Shown: piece by piece, positions 41,432-50,487 of the stretch
Position numbering within the stretch: position 1 is the stretch's first letter
Layout of the letters: each line of letters begins with the position of its first letter
Assembly (NCBI RefSeq): GCF_000769405.2
Contig: NZ_CP053439.1
Location: 1,302,001-1,366,000 of the forward strand
Source: Rhizobium brockwellii
GTDB lineage: Bacteria > Pseudomonadota > Alphaproteobacteria > Rhizobiales > Rhizobiaceae
Length of the DNA: 64,000 nt
Reading direction: 5' to 3'
Made by a program: the position numbers and the translations under genes
Notes under the pieces: generated by a model
What the model was told of the DNA's origin: nothing
The model's database searches: none
What the model saw: only the letters and a program-made list of their open reading frames with translations

Positions 41432-41508
41432 GCGGGTGTAGCTCAGTTGGTTAGAGTGCCGGCCTGTCACGCCGGAGGTCGCGGGTTCGAGCCCCGTCAC
41501 TCGCGCCA
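41432..41508 (+). tRNA. tRNA-Asp (GTC), copy 1
   Basis: It starts GCGGGTGTAGCTCAG and ends ACTCGCGCCA. The anticodon stem-loop CCGGC-CTGTCAC-GCCGG gives GTC. It encodes CCA. Confidence 0.95.
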
Positions 41509-41592: not shown

Positions 41593-41669
41593 GCGGGTGT
41601 AGCTCAGTCGGTTAGAGTGCCGGCCTGTCACGCCGGAGGTCGCGGGTTCGAGCCCCGTCACTCGCGCCA
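41593..41669 (+). tRNA. tRNA-Asp (GTC), copy 2
   Basis: It is identical to copy 1 except for one base in the D-loop (CAGTCGG in place of CAGTTGG). The two genes are 84 bp apart and probably cotranscribed. Confidence 0.95.
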
Positions 41670-43543: not shown

Positions 43544-44734
43544 ATGACAGAACATAACGTCCGCAACTTCAATATCAATTTCGGACCGCAGCATCCGGCG
43601 GCGCACGGCGTTCTTCGTCTTGTCCTGGAGCTTGACGGCGAAATTGTGGAGCGGGTCGATCCGCATATCGGCCTTTTGCATCGCGGCACCGAAAAGCTGA
43701 TCGAGACCAAGACCTATCTTCAGGCCGTGCCCTATTTCGATCGCCTCGACTACGTCGCGCCGATGAACCAGGAACATGCCTATGCGATGGCCGTCGAAAA
43801 GCTGCTCGGCATCGAGATCCCGATTCGCGGCCAGCTGATCCGCGTTCTCTATTCGGAAATCGGTCGCATCCTGTCGCACCTCCTGAACGTCACGACGCAG
43901 GCCATGGACGTCGGCGCGCTGACGCCGCCGCTCTGGGGCTTCGAAGAGCGTGAAAAGCTGATGGTGTTCTACGAGCGCGCCAGCGGCTCACGCATGCATG
44001 CCGCTTATATCCGTCCGGGCGGCGTCCACCAGGATCTGCCCGAACAGCTCGTGCAGGATATCGGCGCCTGGTGCGACCCGTTCCTGAAGGCGCTTGACGA
44101 CATCGACAACCTGTTGACCGGCAACCGCATCTTCAAGCAGCGCAACGTCGATATCGGCGTCGTCTCGCTGGAGGAATGCTGGGCCTGGGGCTTCTCCGGC
44201 GTCATGGTGCGCGGTTCCGGTGCGGCCTGGGATCTGCGTCGCGCCCAGCCCTATGAATGTTATTCCGATCTCGAATTCGATATCCCGATCGGCAAGAATG
44301 GCGACAACTACGACCGTTATCTGATCCGCATGATCGAGATGCGCGAATCGGTCCGCATCATGAAGCAATGCGTCAACCGTCTGCTCTCGGATGCGAAGAC
44401 CGGTCCTTTCTCGTCGATCGACGGCAAGGTCGTGCCGCCGAAGCGCGGCGAGATGAAGCGCTCGATGGAAGCGCTGATCCACCACTTCAAGCTCTATACC
44501 GAAGGCTATCATGTGCCGGCCGGCGAGGTTTATGCCGCCGTCGAAGCGCCGAAGGGCGAATTCGGCGTCTATCTCGTCTCCGACGGCACCAACAAGCCCT
44601 ATCGCTGCAAGATCCGCGCCCCCGGTTATGCCCATCTGCAGGCGATGGACTTCATGTGCCGCGGCCACCAGCTTGCCGACGTCGCGGCCGTCCTCGGCTC
44701 GCTCGACATCGTCTTCGGCGAGGTGGATCGCTGA
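43544..44734 (+). CDS. nuoD: NADH-quinone oxidoreductase subunit D
   Basis: The 396-residue 49-kDa subunit shapes the quinone site together with NuoB. The start [15 protein letters not shown] carries the quinone-head histidine, with [12 protein letters not shown] and the invariant [14 protein letters not shown] following. The C-terminus DIVFGEVDR is standard. Its TGA overlaps the ATG of the next small gene, so that gene is translated by coupling. Confidence 0.97.
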
Positions 44735-45006
44735 TGCAGCTTCTGCCGCTGGCCGTCGTTATTCTTCTTTCGGCATCCGGGGTTTCGGCTCAGGAATCCG
44801 ATAGCCTCGGCACGCCGCTCGGCCATAAGGAAGAGACGCCGCCGGCGCAGCAATCGTCCATGGGTGAGCTTTTGTCCAAGGGCTATCAGATCAAGGCTGC
44901 CATTCCGAACGGCAGCAAATTCGTAGTGTTTATGCAAAAAGACCAGTCGGCCTATGCCTGCGAAATGCAGTCTTTGACCGCTTCGCGGTGTGGAACCCTA
45001 AACTGA
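44734..45006 (+). CDS. Small exported protein encoded inside the nuo operon
   Basis: The 90-residue protein overlaps the nuoD stop by one base (TGATG). Its start [20 protein letters not shown] is a signal peptide. The mature part of about 70 residues is mostly hydrophilic, with a KGYQIKAAIPNGSKFVVFMQ segment and two cysteines in YACEMQSLTASRCGTLN, suggesting one periplasmic disulfide. It is not a canonical complex I subunit. Its place between nuoD and nuoE argues for an assembly or accessory role, but no function is known to me. Confidence 0.7.
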   Translation: MQLLPLAVVILLSASGVSAQESDSLGTPLGHKEETPPAQQSSMGELLSKGYQIKAAIPNGSKFVVFMQKDQSAYACEMQSLTASRCGTLN

Positions 45007-45022: not shown

Positions 45023-46189
45023 ATGTCCGTTCGTCGATTAGCCGAAGATCAATTTCAGCCTGCCGCATTCGCCTTCAGCGATGAGAATGCGGTCTGGGCG
45101 GACAAGACGATCCAGAAATACCCCGCCGGCCGCCAGCAATCGGCGGTCATTCCGCTGTTGATGCGGGCGCAGGAGCAGGACGGCTGGGTCACGCGCGCGG
45201 CGATCGAAAAGATCGCCGACATGCTTGATATGGCCTATATCCGCGTGCTCGAGGTCGCGACCTTCTATACGCAGTTTCAGCTGCATCCTGTGGGTACCCG
45301 CGCCCATGTCCAGGTCTGCGGCACGACGCCCTGCATGCTGCGCGGCTCGGAAGCGCTGATGTCGGTCTGCAAGAGCAAGATCCATGCCCATGCCTTCGAG
45401 CGCAATGCCGAAGGTACGCTATCCTGGGAAGAGGTCGAATGTCTCGGGGCCTGCGTCAACGCCCCGATGGTGATGATCGGCAAGGACACCTATGAAGACC
45501 TGACGCCCGCGCGTCTTGAAGAGATCATCGACGTCTTTGCCGCCGGCAATGGCGCCAGCATCAAGCCCGGCACCCAAATCGACCGGGTGTTTTCGGCGCC
45601 CGAAGGCGGCCTGACCTCGCTGACGACGGAAGAGCCGAAGGCAAGGACCCGCTCCAAGAAGGCCGATGCCGAAACCGTATCGGCTCCAGTCGACGCCGCG
45701 CCGGTTCCGCCCTCCGAGGCCGCCCGCCCGAAGAGCACCGATGCCGAGACCAATGCTGCCCTGAAGACGCCGGCAACGGCGCCGAAGGCGGCTGCGAAAA
45801 ACGCAAAGGCAGCCGAGCAGCAGCCGATATCAGGCACTGCGGCTGCCGAACCGGCGCCGAAAGCTGCCGTCACGGCTGAAGTCGCCCCGGCGGCAAAGCC
45901 TGCTCTGACCGACAAAAATCGGCCGGCCGGCATCGAAAAGCCCGCCGCACCGGATGATCTGAAGATGATCTCGGGTGTCGGCCCGAAGATCGAGGCGACG
46001 TTGAACGAAATCGGCATCTTCACCTTCGCGCAGGTCGCAGGCTGGAAGAAGGCCGAACGCGAATGGGTCGACGGCTATTTGAATTTCCGCGGCCGCATCG
46101 AGCGCGATGACTGGGTCAAGCAGGCCAAGGCGCTCGCCAAGGGCGGGGAAGCGGAATATATCAAGGTCTTCGGCAAGAAGCCGCGGTAA
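45023..46189 (+). CDS. nuoE: NADH-quinone oxidoreductase subunit E with C-terminal HhH-like extension
   Basis: Residues 1-170 are a normal 24-kDa subunit that binds 2Fe-2S cluster N1a: VCGTTPCMLRGSEAL and VECLGACVNAPMVMI supply the four cysteines. The protein then runs on to 388 residues. An Ala/Pro/Lys/Glu-rich linker (about 190-308) is followed by a compact domain from about 310 (DDLKMISGVGPKIEATLNEI, then FRGRIERDDWVKQAKALA) that looks like a helix-hairpin-helix module. A clearly homologous domain ends the protein encoded at 47507. The core delivers electrons with NuoF; the role of the extension is unknown. Confidence 0.95.
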   Translation: MSVRRLAEDQFQPAAFAFSDENAVWADKTIQKYPAGRQQSAVIPLLMRAQEQDGWVTRAAIEKIADMLDMAYIRVLEVATFYTQFQLHPVGTRAHVQVCGTTPCMLRGSEALMSVCKSKIHAHAFERNAEGTLSWEEVECLGACVNAPMVMIGKDTYEDLTPARLEEIIDVFAAGNGASIKPGTQIDRVFSAPEGGLTSLTTEEPKARTRSKKADAETVSAPVDAAPVPPSEAARPKSTDAETNAALKTPATAPKAAAKNAKAAEQQPISGTAAAEPAPKAAVTAEVAPAAKPALTDKNRPAGIEKPAAPDDLKMISGVGPKIEATLNEIGIFTFAQVAGWKKAEREWVDGYLNFRGRIERDDWVKQAKALAKGGEAEYIKVFGKKPR

Positions 46190-46199
46190 GAGGTGAAGC

Positions 46200-47504
46200 A
46201 TGTTACAAGATAAAGACCGCATCTTTACCAACATCTACGGCCTCAAGGACAAATCCCTGAAGGGCGCGATGAGCCGCGGCCACTGGGACGGCACCAAGCA
46301 GATCCTCGAAAAGGGCCGCGACTGGATCATCAACGAGATGAAGGCGTCTGGCCTTCGCGGTCGTGGCGGCGCCGGTTTCCCGACCGGCCTCAAATGGTCC
46401 TTCATGCCGAAGGAAAGCGACGGCCGGCCGCATTACCTCGTCGTCAACGCCGACGAATCCGAGCCCGGCACCTGTAAAGACCGCGACATCATGCGCCACG
46501 ATCCGCATACGCTGATCGAAGGCTGCGTCATCGCGAGTTTCGCGATGGGCGCCAATGCGGCTTACATCTACGTGCGCGGCGAATATATCCGCGAGCGCGA
46601 AGCGCTGCAGGCGGCGATCGACGAATGCTATGATTACGGCCTGCTCGGCAAGAACAACAAGCTCGGCTGGGACATGGATATCTTCGTCCATCACGGCGCC
46701 GGCGCCTATATTTGCGGCGAAGAAACCGCGCTGCTCGAAAGCCTTGAAGGCAAGAAGGGCCAGCCGCGCCTGAAGCCGCCGTTCCCGGCCAATATGGGCC
46801 TCTACGGCTGCCCGACGACGGTCAACAACGTCGAATCGATCGCTGTTGCGCCGACCATCCTGCGCCGCGGCGCCGGCTGGTTCTCGGCCATCGGCCGTCC
46901 GAACAATGTCGGCACCAAGCTGTTCATGCTCTCCGGCCACGTCAACAAGCCGTGCACGGTTGAAGAGGAAATGGGCATCACCTTCCGCGAACTGGTCGAC
47001 CGCCATGCCGGCGGCATTCGCGGCGGCTGGGACAACCTGCTTGCCGTCATTCCGGGCGGGGCATCCTGCCCGATCGTTCCGGCCAAGGACATCATCGATT
47101 GCCCGATGGATTTCGACGGCCTGCGCGGCGTCGGCTCTTCCTTCGGTACGGCCGCCGCGATCGTCATGGACAAGTCCACCGACGTCATCAAGGCGATCGC
47201 TCGTATCTCCGCCTTCTTCAAGCATGAGAGCTGCGGCCAGTGCACGCCCTGCCGCGAAGGCACGGGCTGGATGTGGCGCGTGATGGAGCGCATGGCCAAG
47301 GGCAATGCCCAGAAGCGCGAAATCGACATGCTGTTCCAGGTAACGAAGCAGATCGAAGGCCACACCATCTGTGCGCTCGGCGATGCCGCAGCATGGCCGG
47401 TGCAGGGTCTGATCCGTAACTTCCGTCCCGAGATCGAAAAGCGCATCGACCAGTATACGGCGAGCGCGCTTGATCACGGAGCGGTTCTGGAGGCGGCTGA
47501 ATAA
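46200..47504 (+). CDS. nuoF: NADH-quinone oxidoreductase subunit F
   Basis: The 434-residue 51-kDa subunit oxidises NADH. The FMN/NADH-binding region [16 protein letters not shown] and the acidic [13 protein letters not shown] segment are present. Cluster N3 cysteines lie in [15 protein letters not shown], with the fourth in HTICALGD. The ATG follows AAGAGGTGAAGC, 10 bp after nuoE. It docks with NuoE and NuoG. Confidence 0.97.
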
Positions 47505-47506
47505 TC

Positions 47507-48187
47507 ATGGCGGACAACGCATCCAAGAGTGGGAAGAAGGAAGACGCCGCCGATTTCGCGGCCGGTTTCGGCCGTCTAGCCGCCGAGATGCTGGAAAATG
47601 CACGGGCGATGCCGGTGCATCCGCTGATGGCGCAGCCCGCGGCAGCCTTTGCCGCCGCAACGGCGATCGGCTTTGGTTTCTCGACCCAGATGGCCGGCGC
47701 TTTCTTCGGTGCCTGGCAGAGCGCCCTGGAAACGACCGGCAAGGTCGCCGCCGCCCTCGATGACACGCCGCCGGACGAACTGAAGCCCGATGTCGATATC
47801 CGGCCGGAGAATATTCGCTCGGAGGTCAAGGCTTTCACCAAGCCGCCGGCTGAGAAGAAGGCAAGGCCGACATTGACTGTCGTCAGGCCGGTCAGCGAGC
47901 CGATCCCACCCAGCCAAACGAAGGCCAGCCAGCCAAAGCCGGCGGTGAAGGCAAAAACGGTTGCGCGGGGGAAGGCCGACGATCTCAAGTTGATTGCCGG
48001 CATCGGCCCGAAGCTGGAGCAGGTGCTGAACGACAAAGGCATCCGCAGCTTCGCCGACATCGCTGCCTGGACCGACGAGGAAATCGCCCGGTTCGACGCT
48101 GAACTCGGCTTCGACGGCCGCATCGGCCGTGACGATTGGACCGGCCAGGCGAAAGTTCTGGCAGGGCGGGGCCGCAGAAAGAAATGA
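47507..48187 (+). CDS. HhH-domain protein encoded between nuoF and nuoG
   Basis: The 226-residue protein starts 2 bp after nuoF. An N-terminal helical part (about 15-80) includes a hydrophobic or amphipathic stretch (AAAFAAATAIGFGFSTQMAG). A Pro/Lys-rich linker (about 100-155) follows, and then a domain (ADDLKLIAGIGPKLEQVLND, then FDGRIGRDDWTGQAKVLAG) homologous to the end of NuoE; hand alignment gives about 34 identities in 65 positions without gaps. It is not a standard complex I subunit. Operon position and shared domain suggest an accessory or assembly protein of the peripheral arm. Confidence 0.78.
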   Translation: MADNASKSGKKEDAADFAAGFGRLAAEMLENARAMPVHPLMAQPAAAFAAATAIGFGFSTQMAGAFFGAWQSALETTGKVAAALDDTPPDELKPDVDIRPENIRSEVKAFTKPPAEKKARPTLTVVRPVSEPIPPSQTKASQPKPAVKAKTVARGKADDLKLIAGIGPKLEQVLNDKGIRSFADIAAWTDEEIARFDAELGFDGRIGRDDWTGQAKVLAGRGRRKK

Positions 48188-48405
48188 ACTGTCCGGCCGT
48201 GTCGATCGGCCGGAAAGACGGGCAGGTCGGCGGACGGGCGGGGGCCTGAAGATGCCGGTGCGGGTTCCTGATCTGGAATGCGCGACAGAGAATTTGGGCG
48301 ACATCAAATGTCGGCAGGACGAAAGATCCGGCTTGGCAATGAGAGTGTTGCAAAAATAGGTTTGTTTGCCGTCATCAGGCAAACGGGAAACAGGACTGAG
48401 CGACG
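48188..48405 (+). promoter_or_regulatory. Spacer before nuoG with two hairpins
   Basis: Within 218 nt two stems are seen: TCCGGCC/GGCCGGA (48192-48214) and GTTTGCC/GGCAAAC (48364-48384). The latter ends 21 nt before the nuoG start. They may be processing or attenuation sites inside the operon. No gene was found. Confidence 0.4.
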
Positions 48406-50487
48406 ATGGCAAAACTGAGGATTGACGGCAACGAGATCGAAGTTCCGGATCATTTCACGCTATTGCAGGCGTGTGAGGATGCCGGTGCCGAGGTTCCGCG
48501 CTTCTGCTTCCATGAGCGCCTGTCGGTTGCCGGCAATTGCCGCATGTGCCTTGTCGAGGTGAAGGGCGGCCCGCCGAAGCCGCAGGCTTCCTGCGCCATG
48601 AGCGTGCGCGACATCCGCGGCGGCCCGAACGGCGAACTGCCCGAGGTCTTCACCAACACGCCCATGGTCAAGAAGGCCCGCGAAGGCGTGATGGAATTTC
48701 TGCTGATCAACCATCCGCTCGATTGCCCGATCTGCGACCAGGGCGGCGAATGCGACCTGCAGGACCAGGCGATGGCCTTCGGCATCGACACCTCGCGCTA
48801 TCAGGAGGACAAGCGTGCCGTCGAGGACAAGTATATCGGCCCGCTCGTCAAGACGGTGATGAACCGCTGCATCCACTGCACGCGCTGCGTCCGCTTCACC
48901 ACCGAGGTCGCCGGCATTTCCGAACTCGGCCTGATCGGCCGCGGCGAGGATGCCGAGATCACCACCTATCTCGAACAGGCGATGACCTCAGAATTGCAGG
49001 GCAACGTCGTCGACCTTTGCCCGGTCGGCGCGCTGACCTCGAAGCCCTTCGCCTTCACCGCGCGTCCGTGGGAATTGAACAAGACCGAATCGATCGACGT
49101 CATGGATGCCGTCGGTTCGGCGATCCGCGTCGACACCCGTGGCCGCGAAGTCATGCGCATCCTGCCGCGCGTCAATGAGGCGATCAACGAGGAGTGGATT
49201 TCCGACAAGAGCCGCTTCATCTGGGACGGCCTGAAGACCCAGCGCCTCGACCGGCCCTATGTTCGCCGCGACGGCCGCCTGCAGCCCGCCACCTGGGCCG
49301 AAGCCTTCGGCGCCATCAAGGCCGCCGTCGGCACCACCTCGGGCGACAAGATAGGCGCGATATCAGGCGACCTCGCTTCCGTCGAGGAAATGTTTGCACT
49401 CTCTGAACTGGTGAAGTCGCTAGGGTCGGTCAATCTCGACTGTCGCCAGGATGGGGCGGCACTCGATCCGTCGCTCGGCCGTTCTAGCTACCTGTTCAAC
49501 CCGACGATCTCGGGCATCGACCAGGCCGACGCGCTGTTGATCATCGGCGCCAATCCGCGCTTCGAGGCAGCCATCCTCAACGCCCGCATCCGCAAGCGCT
49601 GGCGCCGCGGCAAGTTCCCGATCGGCGTCATCGGCGAGCGTGCTGAACTGCGCTACAGCTATGATTACCTCGGCGGCGGTCCCGACACGCTGAAGGATCT
49701 GGTCGACGGCACCCACGCCTTCGCGGACGTGCTGAAGAATGCCGCCAAGCCGATGATCATCATCGGCCAGGGCGCGCTGTCGCGCACCGACGGCGCCGGC
49801 GTTCTCGCCAGTGCTGCCAAGCTTGCCGGTTCGGTCGGTGCGGTCGCCGACGGCTGGAACGGCTTTGCCGTCCTCCACACCGCGGCCTCGCGTGTCGGCG
49901 GCCTCGACCTCGGCTTCGTGCCGGGCGCCAAGGGCGTCAATGCCGCCGAGATGCTGACCGCGATGGACGTGCTCTTCCTGCTCGGCGCCGACGAACTCGA
50001 CTTCACCGCCAAGAAGGCCAAGCTCACCGTCTATATCGGCTCGCATGGCGACAACGGCGCGCACCATGCCGACGTCATCCTGCCGGCCGCAGCCTATACC
50101 GAAAAGTCCGGCACCTGGGTCAACACCGAAGGCCGCGTCCAGATGGGCAACCGAGCAGGTTTTGCGCCGGGTGATGCCCGCGAGGACTGGGCGATCATCC
50201 GTGCCCTTTCCGACGTGCTCGGCAAGAAGCTTCCCTTCGATTCGCTCAGTGAATTGCGTGTCCGGCTCTATGCCGCTTTCCCGCATTTCGCTGCCATCGA
50301 CGAGATCGCTGAAACCGATAGCGCCCAAATTGCCGCAGTAGCGAAAAAAGCCGGCAAGATGAACAAATCCGGGTTTGCGTCGCCGGTGAAAGACTTCTAT
50401 TTGACGAACCCGATAGCGCGTGCCTCGGCTGTCATGGCGGAGTGCTCGGCATTGGCCCGCAACAACTTCAAAGTCGCGGCAGAGTAA
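48406..50487 (+). CDS. nuoG: NADH-quinone oxidoreductase subunit G
   Basis: The 693-residue 75-kDa subunit has an N-terminal ferredoxin domain with 2Fe-2S cysteines in CFHERLSVAGNCRMCLVEVKG, a His-Cys cluster region HPLDCPICDQGGECDLQDQ, and CIHCTRCVRF plus VVDLCPVGALTSKP for the two 4Fe-4S clusters. A molybdopterin-oxidoreductase-like domain without cofactor follows from about residue 220. It relays electrons from NuoF to NuoI. The 218-nt gap before it is unusually long for this operon. Confidence 0.96.
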   Translation: MAKLRIDGNEIEVPDHFTLLQACEDAGAEVPRFCFHERLSVAGNCRMCLVEVKGGPPKPQASCAMSVRDIRGGPNGELPEVFTNTPMVKKAREGVMEFLLINHPLDCPICDQGGECDLQDQAMAFGIDTSRYQEDKRAVEDKYIGPLVKTVMNRCIHCTRCVRFTTEVAGISELGLIGRGEDAEITTYLEQAMTSELQGNVVDLCPVGALTSKPFAFTARPWELNKTESIDVMDAVGSAIRVDTRGREVMRILPRVNEAINEEWISDKSRFIWDGLKTQRLDRPYVRRDGRLQPATWAEAFGAIKAAVGTTSGDKIGAISGDLASVEEMFALSELVKSLGSVNLDCRQDGAALDPSLGRSSYLFNPTISGIDQADALLIIGANPRFEAAILNARIRKRWRRGKFPIGVIGERAELRYSYDYLGGGPDTLKDLVDGTHAFADVLKNAAKPMIIIGQGALSRTDGAGVLASAAKLAGSVGAVADGWNGFAVLHTAASRVGGLDLGFVPGAKGVNAAEMLTAMDVLFLLGADELDFTAKKAKLTVYIGSHGDNGAHHADVILPAAAYTEKSGTWVNTEGRVQMGNRAGFAPGDAREDWAIIRALSDVLGKKLPFDSLSELRVRLYAAFPHFAAIDEIAETDSAQIAAVAKKAGKMNKSGFASPVKDFYLTNPIARASAVMAECSALARNNFKVAAE

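Follow-up and report, generated by a model that had tools for sequence, protein, structure and literature searches.

The NuoE subunit of complex I in Rhizobium brockwellii and a 226-residue protein encoded between nuoF and nuoG end in copies of the same small domain, and this domain is a mobile C-terminal module that is, within the phylum sample that we surveyed, almost confined to the Alphaproteobacteria. The two genes lie in a 64,000-nucleotide stretch of the genome (contig NZ_CP053439.1, positions 1,302,001 to 1,366,000; hereafter the window, from whose first base all coordinates are counted), the best protein matches being to the Rhizobium leguminosarum group. We use the working name orfX for the 226-residue protein, which is encoded at 47507-48187. 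The original prediction, made from the letters of the window, had suggested that the two helix-hairpin-helix (HhH)-like tails may form a docking or assembly device unique to alphaproteobacterial complex I. The feature is real, conserved and under selection, but it was misread as a device private to complex I: the same module ends the ribosomal proteins L21, S2 and L19, polyhydroxybutyrate (PHB) depolymerases and membrane-anchored proteins, and the two copies in the nuo operon are independent of each other.

The tails of NuoE and orfX align without a gap from the motif DDLK (starting at residue 311 of NuoE and residue 158 of orfX), with 35 identities in 65 positions, one more than the 34 counted earlier by hand; the coordinates and the common motifs DDLK, GxGPK, GRIxRDDW and QAK likewise agree with what had been claimed. 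The local alignment score of the pair is 175, compared with a mean of 26.5 (s.d. 5.2, maximum 53) for 2000 shuffles, and BLASTP relates the two with an E-value of 3e-23. A recent duplication inside the host genome is ruled out as their source, since the tail stretches share only 63% identity at the DNA level. Both domains are attached to linkers rich in alanine and proline (39% of the residues in NuoE, 30% in orfX). The predicted structure of orfX combines an N-terminal module modelled at low confidence, a disordered linker (predicted local distance difference test score, pLDDT, mostly <50) and a domain with pLDDT 86-89, and the isolated NuoE tail (residues 304-388) was modelled by AlphaFold2 (AF2) with a mean pLDDT of 95.8.

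The fold class of the tail is likely the HhH type. The Pfam model HHH_5 (PF14520) gives 24.9 bits for orfX and 17.1 bits for NuoE, both under its gathering score of 27, and the fold likeness to units of the RadA/NusA type has a middling Z; with these sub-threshold matches and that likeness taken together, 'HhH-like' is a fair label. The tail resembles the RadA N-terminal domain and the NusA AR2 domain, over about 60 residues, in its probable small helical HhH-type fold. It differs from them in that the Foldseek E-values exceed 0.6, the sequence matches to RadA models are weak (E 0.002, for the loci L006 and L094), and a conserved C-terminal GRIxRDxWxxQAK marks the tail family in the alignments made here. 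Foldseek searches with either predicted model returned no match at E<=0.001.

NuoE and orfX are both under purifying selection as proteins. Across 57 NuoE sequences, the ratio of non-synonymous to synonymous divergence (dN/dS) is 0.058 in the core, 0.14 in the linker and 0.09 in the domain, and in the last 13 residues, beyond the domain, it falls to 0.008 with a mean dN of 0.006 (888 usable pairs from the 57 sequences). In 57 orfX sequences the N-terminal module and the domain both have a ratio of 0.17, and the linker has one of 0.35. The relatives of orfX have in common an Ala/Gly-rich module, LMAHPxAAxAAATAxGxGxAxQxxGxxxGAxxGA, and diverge beyond it.

The profile search that the original prediction had proposed as a check did find the same domain in other alphaproteobacterial proteins. 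A profile of 30 domains matched 71 of the 249 genomes of the phylum sample at 1e-8, 69 of them in the same class; the remaining two belong to one genus and match weakly. When the whole of orfX served as the query, 135 of 149 genomes of the order gave matches at 1e-4, most of those listed spanning the domain and linker only. A search of the host's own genome yielded no domain copy beyond NuoE and orfX. Phage records gave no match at E 1e-4, and eight plasmid records match at 1e-6 (under the names Sinorhizobium, Shinella, Rhizobium, Methylobacterium and Sphingomonas).

A census of 142 distinct domain-bearing open reading frames (ORFs), biased in its proportions as it combines search loci with 80 stretches hand-picked mostly from the top rows, comprises 39 L21, 38 NuoE, 23 S2 and five PHB depolymerase-type proteins, along with five ORFs of orfX/phasin-like classes, two ABC ATPases and 30 others (hosts were labelled by BLAST to seeds, and the cut NuoE pieces L033 and L034 stand under 'other'). 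A hydropathy script run on all loci labelled 25 ORFs as membrane-anchored, and a single L19 ORF with the tail was encountered (L094). Among the depolymerase-type proteins (L055, L084, L108, L116 and L118), L055 has 619.8 bits against the PhaZ model TIGR01849 in addition to its tail, and the other four were assigned by their similarity to L055. Tailed L21 and S2 are also represented by NCBIfam models (NF008915, NF008916 and NF008966). The domain of tailed L21, S2 and L19 is the same as that of NuoE and orfX; the L21 and S2 copies, however, have mostly lost the hairpin lysine and are more acidic. Some proteins retrieved by a large protein search contain two to four copies. Multi-copy proteins include P0121, P0122, P0124 and L087, one of them with an N-terminus resembling a membrane anchor; L087 is a GGDEF-EAL protein with several copies.

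The position of orfX is constant. In each of the 57 genome loci identified by its N-terminal part it lies between nuoF and nuoG, and 53 of these loci also contain an ORF ending in the Rhizobium-type NuoE tail. The tail domain occurs in 57 of 61 genomes of the family among the matches listed; in at least 28 of these 57, two copies lie on the same strand 1.5-3.6 kb apart. The 26 pairs retrieved out of these 28 all show the order NuoE tail, NuoF, orfX-type protein and NuoG, 16 of them being placed between nuoF and nuoG by a strict script and 10 from coordinates (the orfX-type ORFs of these 10, read from stop to stop, begin within nuoF). The same order is found in a second family (L052 and L109). 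The original claim of two such domains on disordered linkers flanking nuoF is upheld, and the arrangement recurs across genomes, a lack of co-occurrence having been named as a refutation. In one genome (G508, locus L252), three tailed proteins are encoded in a single nuo operon: NuoE, a protein-O-like protein (see below) at the nuoE-nuoF place and another at the nuoF-nuoG place; this genome is without a PhaC_N match. Relatives of orfX appear in databases as '5' DNA nuclease', 'NADH-quinone oxidoreductase subunit E' or 'NADH:ubiquinone oxidoreductase', names that apparently stem from the tail alone.

Such frequent pairing (at least 28 of 57 family genomes, all 26 retrieved pairs confirmed) would be in keeping with mutual docking, in which the tails of NuoE and orfX would contact one another around NuoF and in this way help to assemble or stabilise the NADH module, and so would the exactly two copies, on NuoE and orfX, in the host genome and the tailed, protein-O-like second gene that adjoins the NuoE tail in another family of the class (L006, L008/L029). 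Genomes with a single copy argue against this scenario. Exactly one domain copy at 1e-6 is present in 13 of the 61 family genomes among the matches listed, and all 13 copies were retrieved: seven are on NuoE, five on orfX and one outside the nuo genes. In the seven NuoE-only genomes, 52-290 bases lie between the matches to nuoF and nuoG, no domain was found in the NuoE of the five orfX-only genomes, and in each of these 12 genomes the copy is the sole one found at E<=1e-6. Sinorhizobium meliloti Ak57 likewise has orfX, and the domain is missing from the end of its NuoE. The two tails therefore need neither each other nor a second copy. Obligate docking is refuted, although co-occurrence is still common, and we regard mutual docking in general as improbable. 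The S. meliloti Ak57 record concerned (CP090106.1, locus L328) is labelled pSymB, is 3.7 Mb long and carries nuoA to nuoL in the part examined; the pSymB label may be wrong.

The orfX tail probably descended from a NuoE tail. A tree of 215 domains, in which the protein-O class includes cut NuoE pieces, requires 50 changes of host label, compared with at least 119 in 200 shuffles, and on this tree 43 of 47 orfX domains have a NuoE tail as their closest neighbour outside orfX; by plain identity, a NuoE tail is nearest for only 24 of the 47. Two members of the family, L257 and L259, keep a NuoE-like end past the domain.

Two described proteins come close to orfX. The first is protein-O of the reaction centre-light-harvesting 1 (RC-LH1) complex of Dinoroseobacter shibae, whose gene, according to a passage of PMC12079452 (2025), lies between those of NuoE and NuoF and whose C-terminal domain is said there to resemble the end of NuoE, its function being called obscure. 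Protein-O (PDB 8yy9, chain O) has the same C-terminal domain (E 5.1e-17) and, as the same passage indicates, a long flexible loop and a nuo-operon gene adjoining nuoE. Unlike orfX, it has N-terminal membrane helices, is part of a photosynthetic complex, and is encoded at nuoE-nuoF rather than nuoF-nuoG; the highest 19-residue hydropathy of orfX is 1.39, short of a membrane helix, versus 2.81 and 2.40 in protein-O-like ORFs (L006 and L029). The NuoE of the window is itself a full-length member of the PRK12373 type, NF009040 (674.4 bits, positions 1-400 of 400, cut-off 514), a model whose name gives the tail no function; some NuoE proteins of the bacterial family sampled are without the tail. 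The claim of an undescribed system hence holds in part: full-length NuoE has been modelled and protein-O described, whereas the function of the shared domain is termed obscure in the passage mentioned.

The other protein is PhaH (NF045508). A passage of a review (PMC13052382, citing Salinas et al. 2023) reports that the N-terminus of Caulobacter PhaH binds PHB granules, that its HhH domain binds DNA nonspecifically, and that granule order is lost when PhaH is missing. PhaH has the same C-terminal domain behind a linker and a similar length (234 model positions, versus 226 residues in orfX), and the orfX tail aligns with positions 137-232 of the 234 at E 3.6e-19. The whole-protein scores, in contrast, are 69.9 bits for orfX, 67 for NuoE and 57.5-83.9 for 15 relatives in the nuoF-nuoG position, far from the cut-off of 250, and the orfX gene differs in sitting between nuoF and nuoG. 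No PhaH was found at the model cut-off in 96 or in 387 genomes of the class, and at E 1e-30 it was found in none of the 387 class-sample genomes and in one of 14 controls, Caulobacter vibrioides. Among the openly licensed papers listed by the literature searches, we noticed none that treats these tailed hosts as one class, and a search on the HhH tail of L21 gave no paper. The kind to which the two proteins belong, HhH-tailed assembly proteins of Alphaproteobacteria, is known but unexplained; to it we add the orfX family encoded in the nuo operon and the finding that the tails are independent.

Our preferred interpretation, to which we assign a probability of about 0.4, is that the tails are independent mobile tethers whose common ligand is most likely nucleic acid, specifically nucleoid DNA. 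Both would be versions of a single mobile HhH-type domain that serves as a tether in Alphaproteobacteria, borne at the end of long flexible linkers and mostly on the surfaces of large assemblies. The NuoE tail would hang into the cytoplasm from the NADH-oxidising tip of complex I, while the orfX tail would be joined to a small hydrophobic module; each would act alone, binding a common cellular ligand, the likeliest being nucleoid DNA, with complex I loosely held near it and the seat of the orfX N-terminus (a PHB granule, the membrane or complex I itself) held there in the same manner. Nucleic acid is the likeliest ligand because the review passage reports DNA binding by the PhaH domain, and we infer a common ligand for the tails of NuoE and orfX; the cellular place of orfX is likewise inferred. 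The original prediction had also raised the possibility of tethering to some other partner, for example nucleic acid, which fits the precedent of Caulobacter PhaH.

In the hairpin of the domain, a lysine at the place directly past GxGP may touch DNA. Lysine or arginine occupies this place in 95 of 111 NuoE, 95 of 95 orfX, all 5 PHB depolymerase-type and 16 of 25 membrane-anchored copies, and in only 3 of 43 L21 and 1 of 27 S2 copies, both of which are more acidic (host classes corrected, with the protein-O class rid of cut NuoE pieces). A hairpin contact may thus persist in the copies outside the ribosome and have been lost from those on it. Two points call for caution: the charges of the domains are near zero, and the tail is similar to NusA AR2. 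A NusA AR2-like manner of binding is what one alternative invokes, namely that all the tails share a protein partner, be it a transcription, translation or quality-control factor; given the DNA binding reported for the PhaH domain (passage of PMC13052382), we find this unlikely. Slightly less likely again is self-association, with homodimers or small polymers of the domain, of which SAM-like folds are capable, clustering complex I, ribosomes or granules.

A further alternative puts orfX itself on storage granules, as a PhaH-like protein, with the NuoE tail bringing complex I near them via nucleoid or tail contacts and so coupling NADH and PHB metabolism. Of 33 genomes with orfX, 32 have a PHB synthase (PF07167), as against 7 of 12 without it (Fisher p 0.003, uncorrected for kinship; G513, with its second copy unplaced, was excluded, and for G503, G504, G524, G533 and G544 'without orfX' means no domain copy at that place), and tails occur on PHB depolymerase-type proteins such as L055. 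Table 3 of PMC12542648 lists a possible site for PhaR, a regulator that senses PHB, upstream of nuoA1 in S. meliloti, with binding not evaluated and the protein not detected. The N-termini speak against such a role: for orfX and the 15 relatives, which diverge fast in this region, the best NF045508 stretch never reaches the first 60 positions; the orfX N-terminal module aligned with Phasin_2 (PF09361) in hhalign over 9 columns at a probability of 0.1 and E 0.81; and neither orfX nor 10 relatives match Pfam phasin models. In addition, the best PhaR-like sequence ahead of nuoA in the window is a weak candidate, as good a one occurring in 13 of 121 equal-length segments (possibly including its own), and G508 combines an atypical orfX N-terminus with the lack of a PhaC match. 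A granule role of orfX is possible; the full scheme coupling it to complex I seems to us rather doubtful, and independent tethering to nucleic acid remains our preferred interpretation of the two tails.

Table 1. Parts of the nuoE-nuoG region, with positions in the window.
Feature	Position	Strand	Basis
nuoE, 388 aa, [2Fe-2S] subunit of complex I, extended at its C-terminus	45023..46189	+	NCBIfam NF009040, Pfam PF01257 (residues 27-171)
NuoE linker, residues 172-308, Ala/Pro-rich	45536..45946	+	composition; dN/dS 0.14 (residues 205-306)
NuoE HhH-type tail domain (likely fold class), residues 309-375	45947..46147	+	35/65 identity to orfX; AF2 pLDDT; dN/dS 0.09
NuoE C-terminal peptide past the domain, residues 376-388, strongly conserved	46148..46186	+	dN 0.006, ratio 0.008
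nuoF, flanked by the two tailed genes	46200..47504	+	Pfam PF01512, PF10589
orfX, 226 aa, nuoF-nuoG interval: hydrophobic N-terminal module, linker, HhH-type domain	47507..48187	+	synteny
orfX N-terminal Ala/Gly-rich hydrophobic module, residues 1-85	47507..47761	+	dN/dS 0.17; consensus; 19-residue hydropathy 1.39
orfX linker, residues 86-156	47762..47974	+	pLDDT mostly <50; dN/dS 0.35 (residues 86-155)
orfX HhH-type tail domain (likely fold class), residues 157-222, then RRKK (4 residues)	47975..48172	+	identity to NuoE; pLDDT 86-89; dN/dS 0.17
nuoG, downstream limit of the arrangement	48406..50487	+	ORF; synteny

Some neighbouring features of the locus may be mentioned. A 218-base gap (48188-48405) separates orfX from nuoG, with a strong hairpin directly 3' of the orfX stop, and the segment 48180-48405 has a folding z-score of -2.32 relative to shuffles. 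The nuoD-nuoE interval contains a small ORF (44734-45006) with a signal-peptide-like start, for which neither Pfam nor NCBIfam gives a match up to E 1; a similar small protein is encoded at the same place in S. meliloti (L328:3133-3387). Tandem tRNA-Asp genes (41432-41508 and 41593-41669) lie upstream of nuoA.

One tail shared by the ribosomes, complex I, the photosynthetic core and the granules of a single class asks for a single explanation. It is conceivable, if rather unlikely, that one HhH tail serves as a general tether by which the largest cellular machines are attached to a common scaffold, most likely the nucleoid. Besides complex I and the photosynthetic core, these would include the two ribosomal subunits, PHB granules and membrane anchors; complex I would be leashed to the chromosome, and the second tailed protein of the nuo operon would leash a granule or membrane patch beside it. 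S. meliloti Ak57 and the single-copy genomes provide clean natural tests. Were the nucleoid tether real, it would fix complex I to the chromosome, with a bearing on where in the cell bacteria place respiration, translation and storage.
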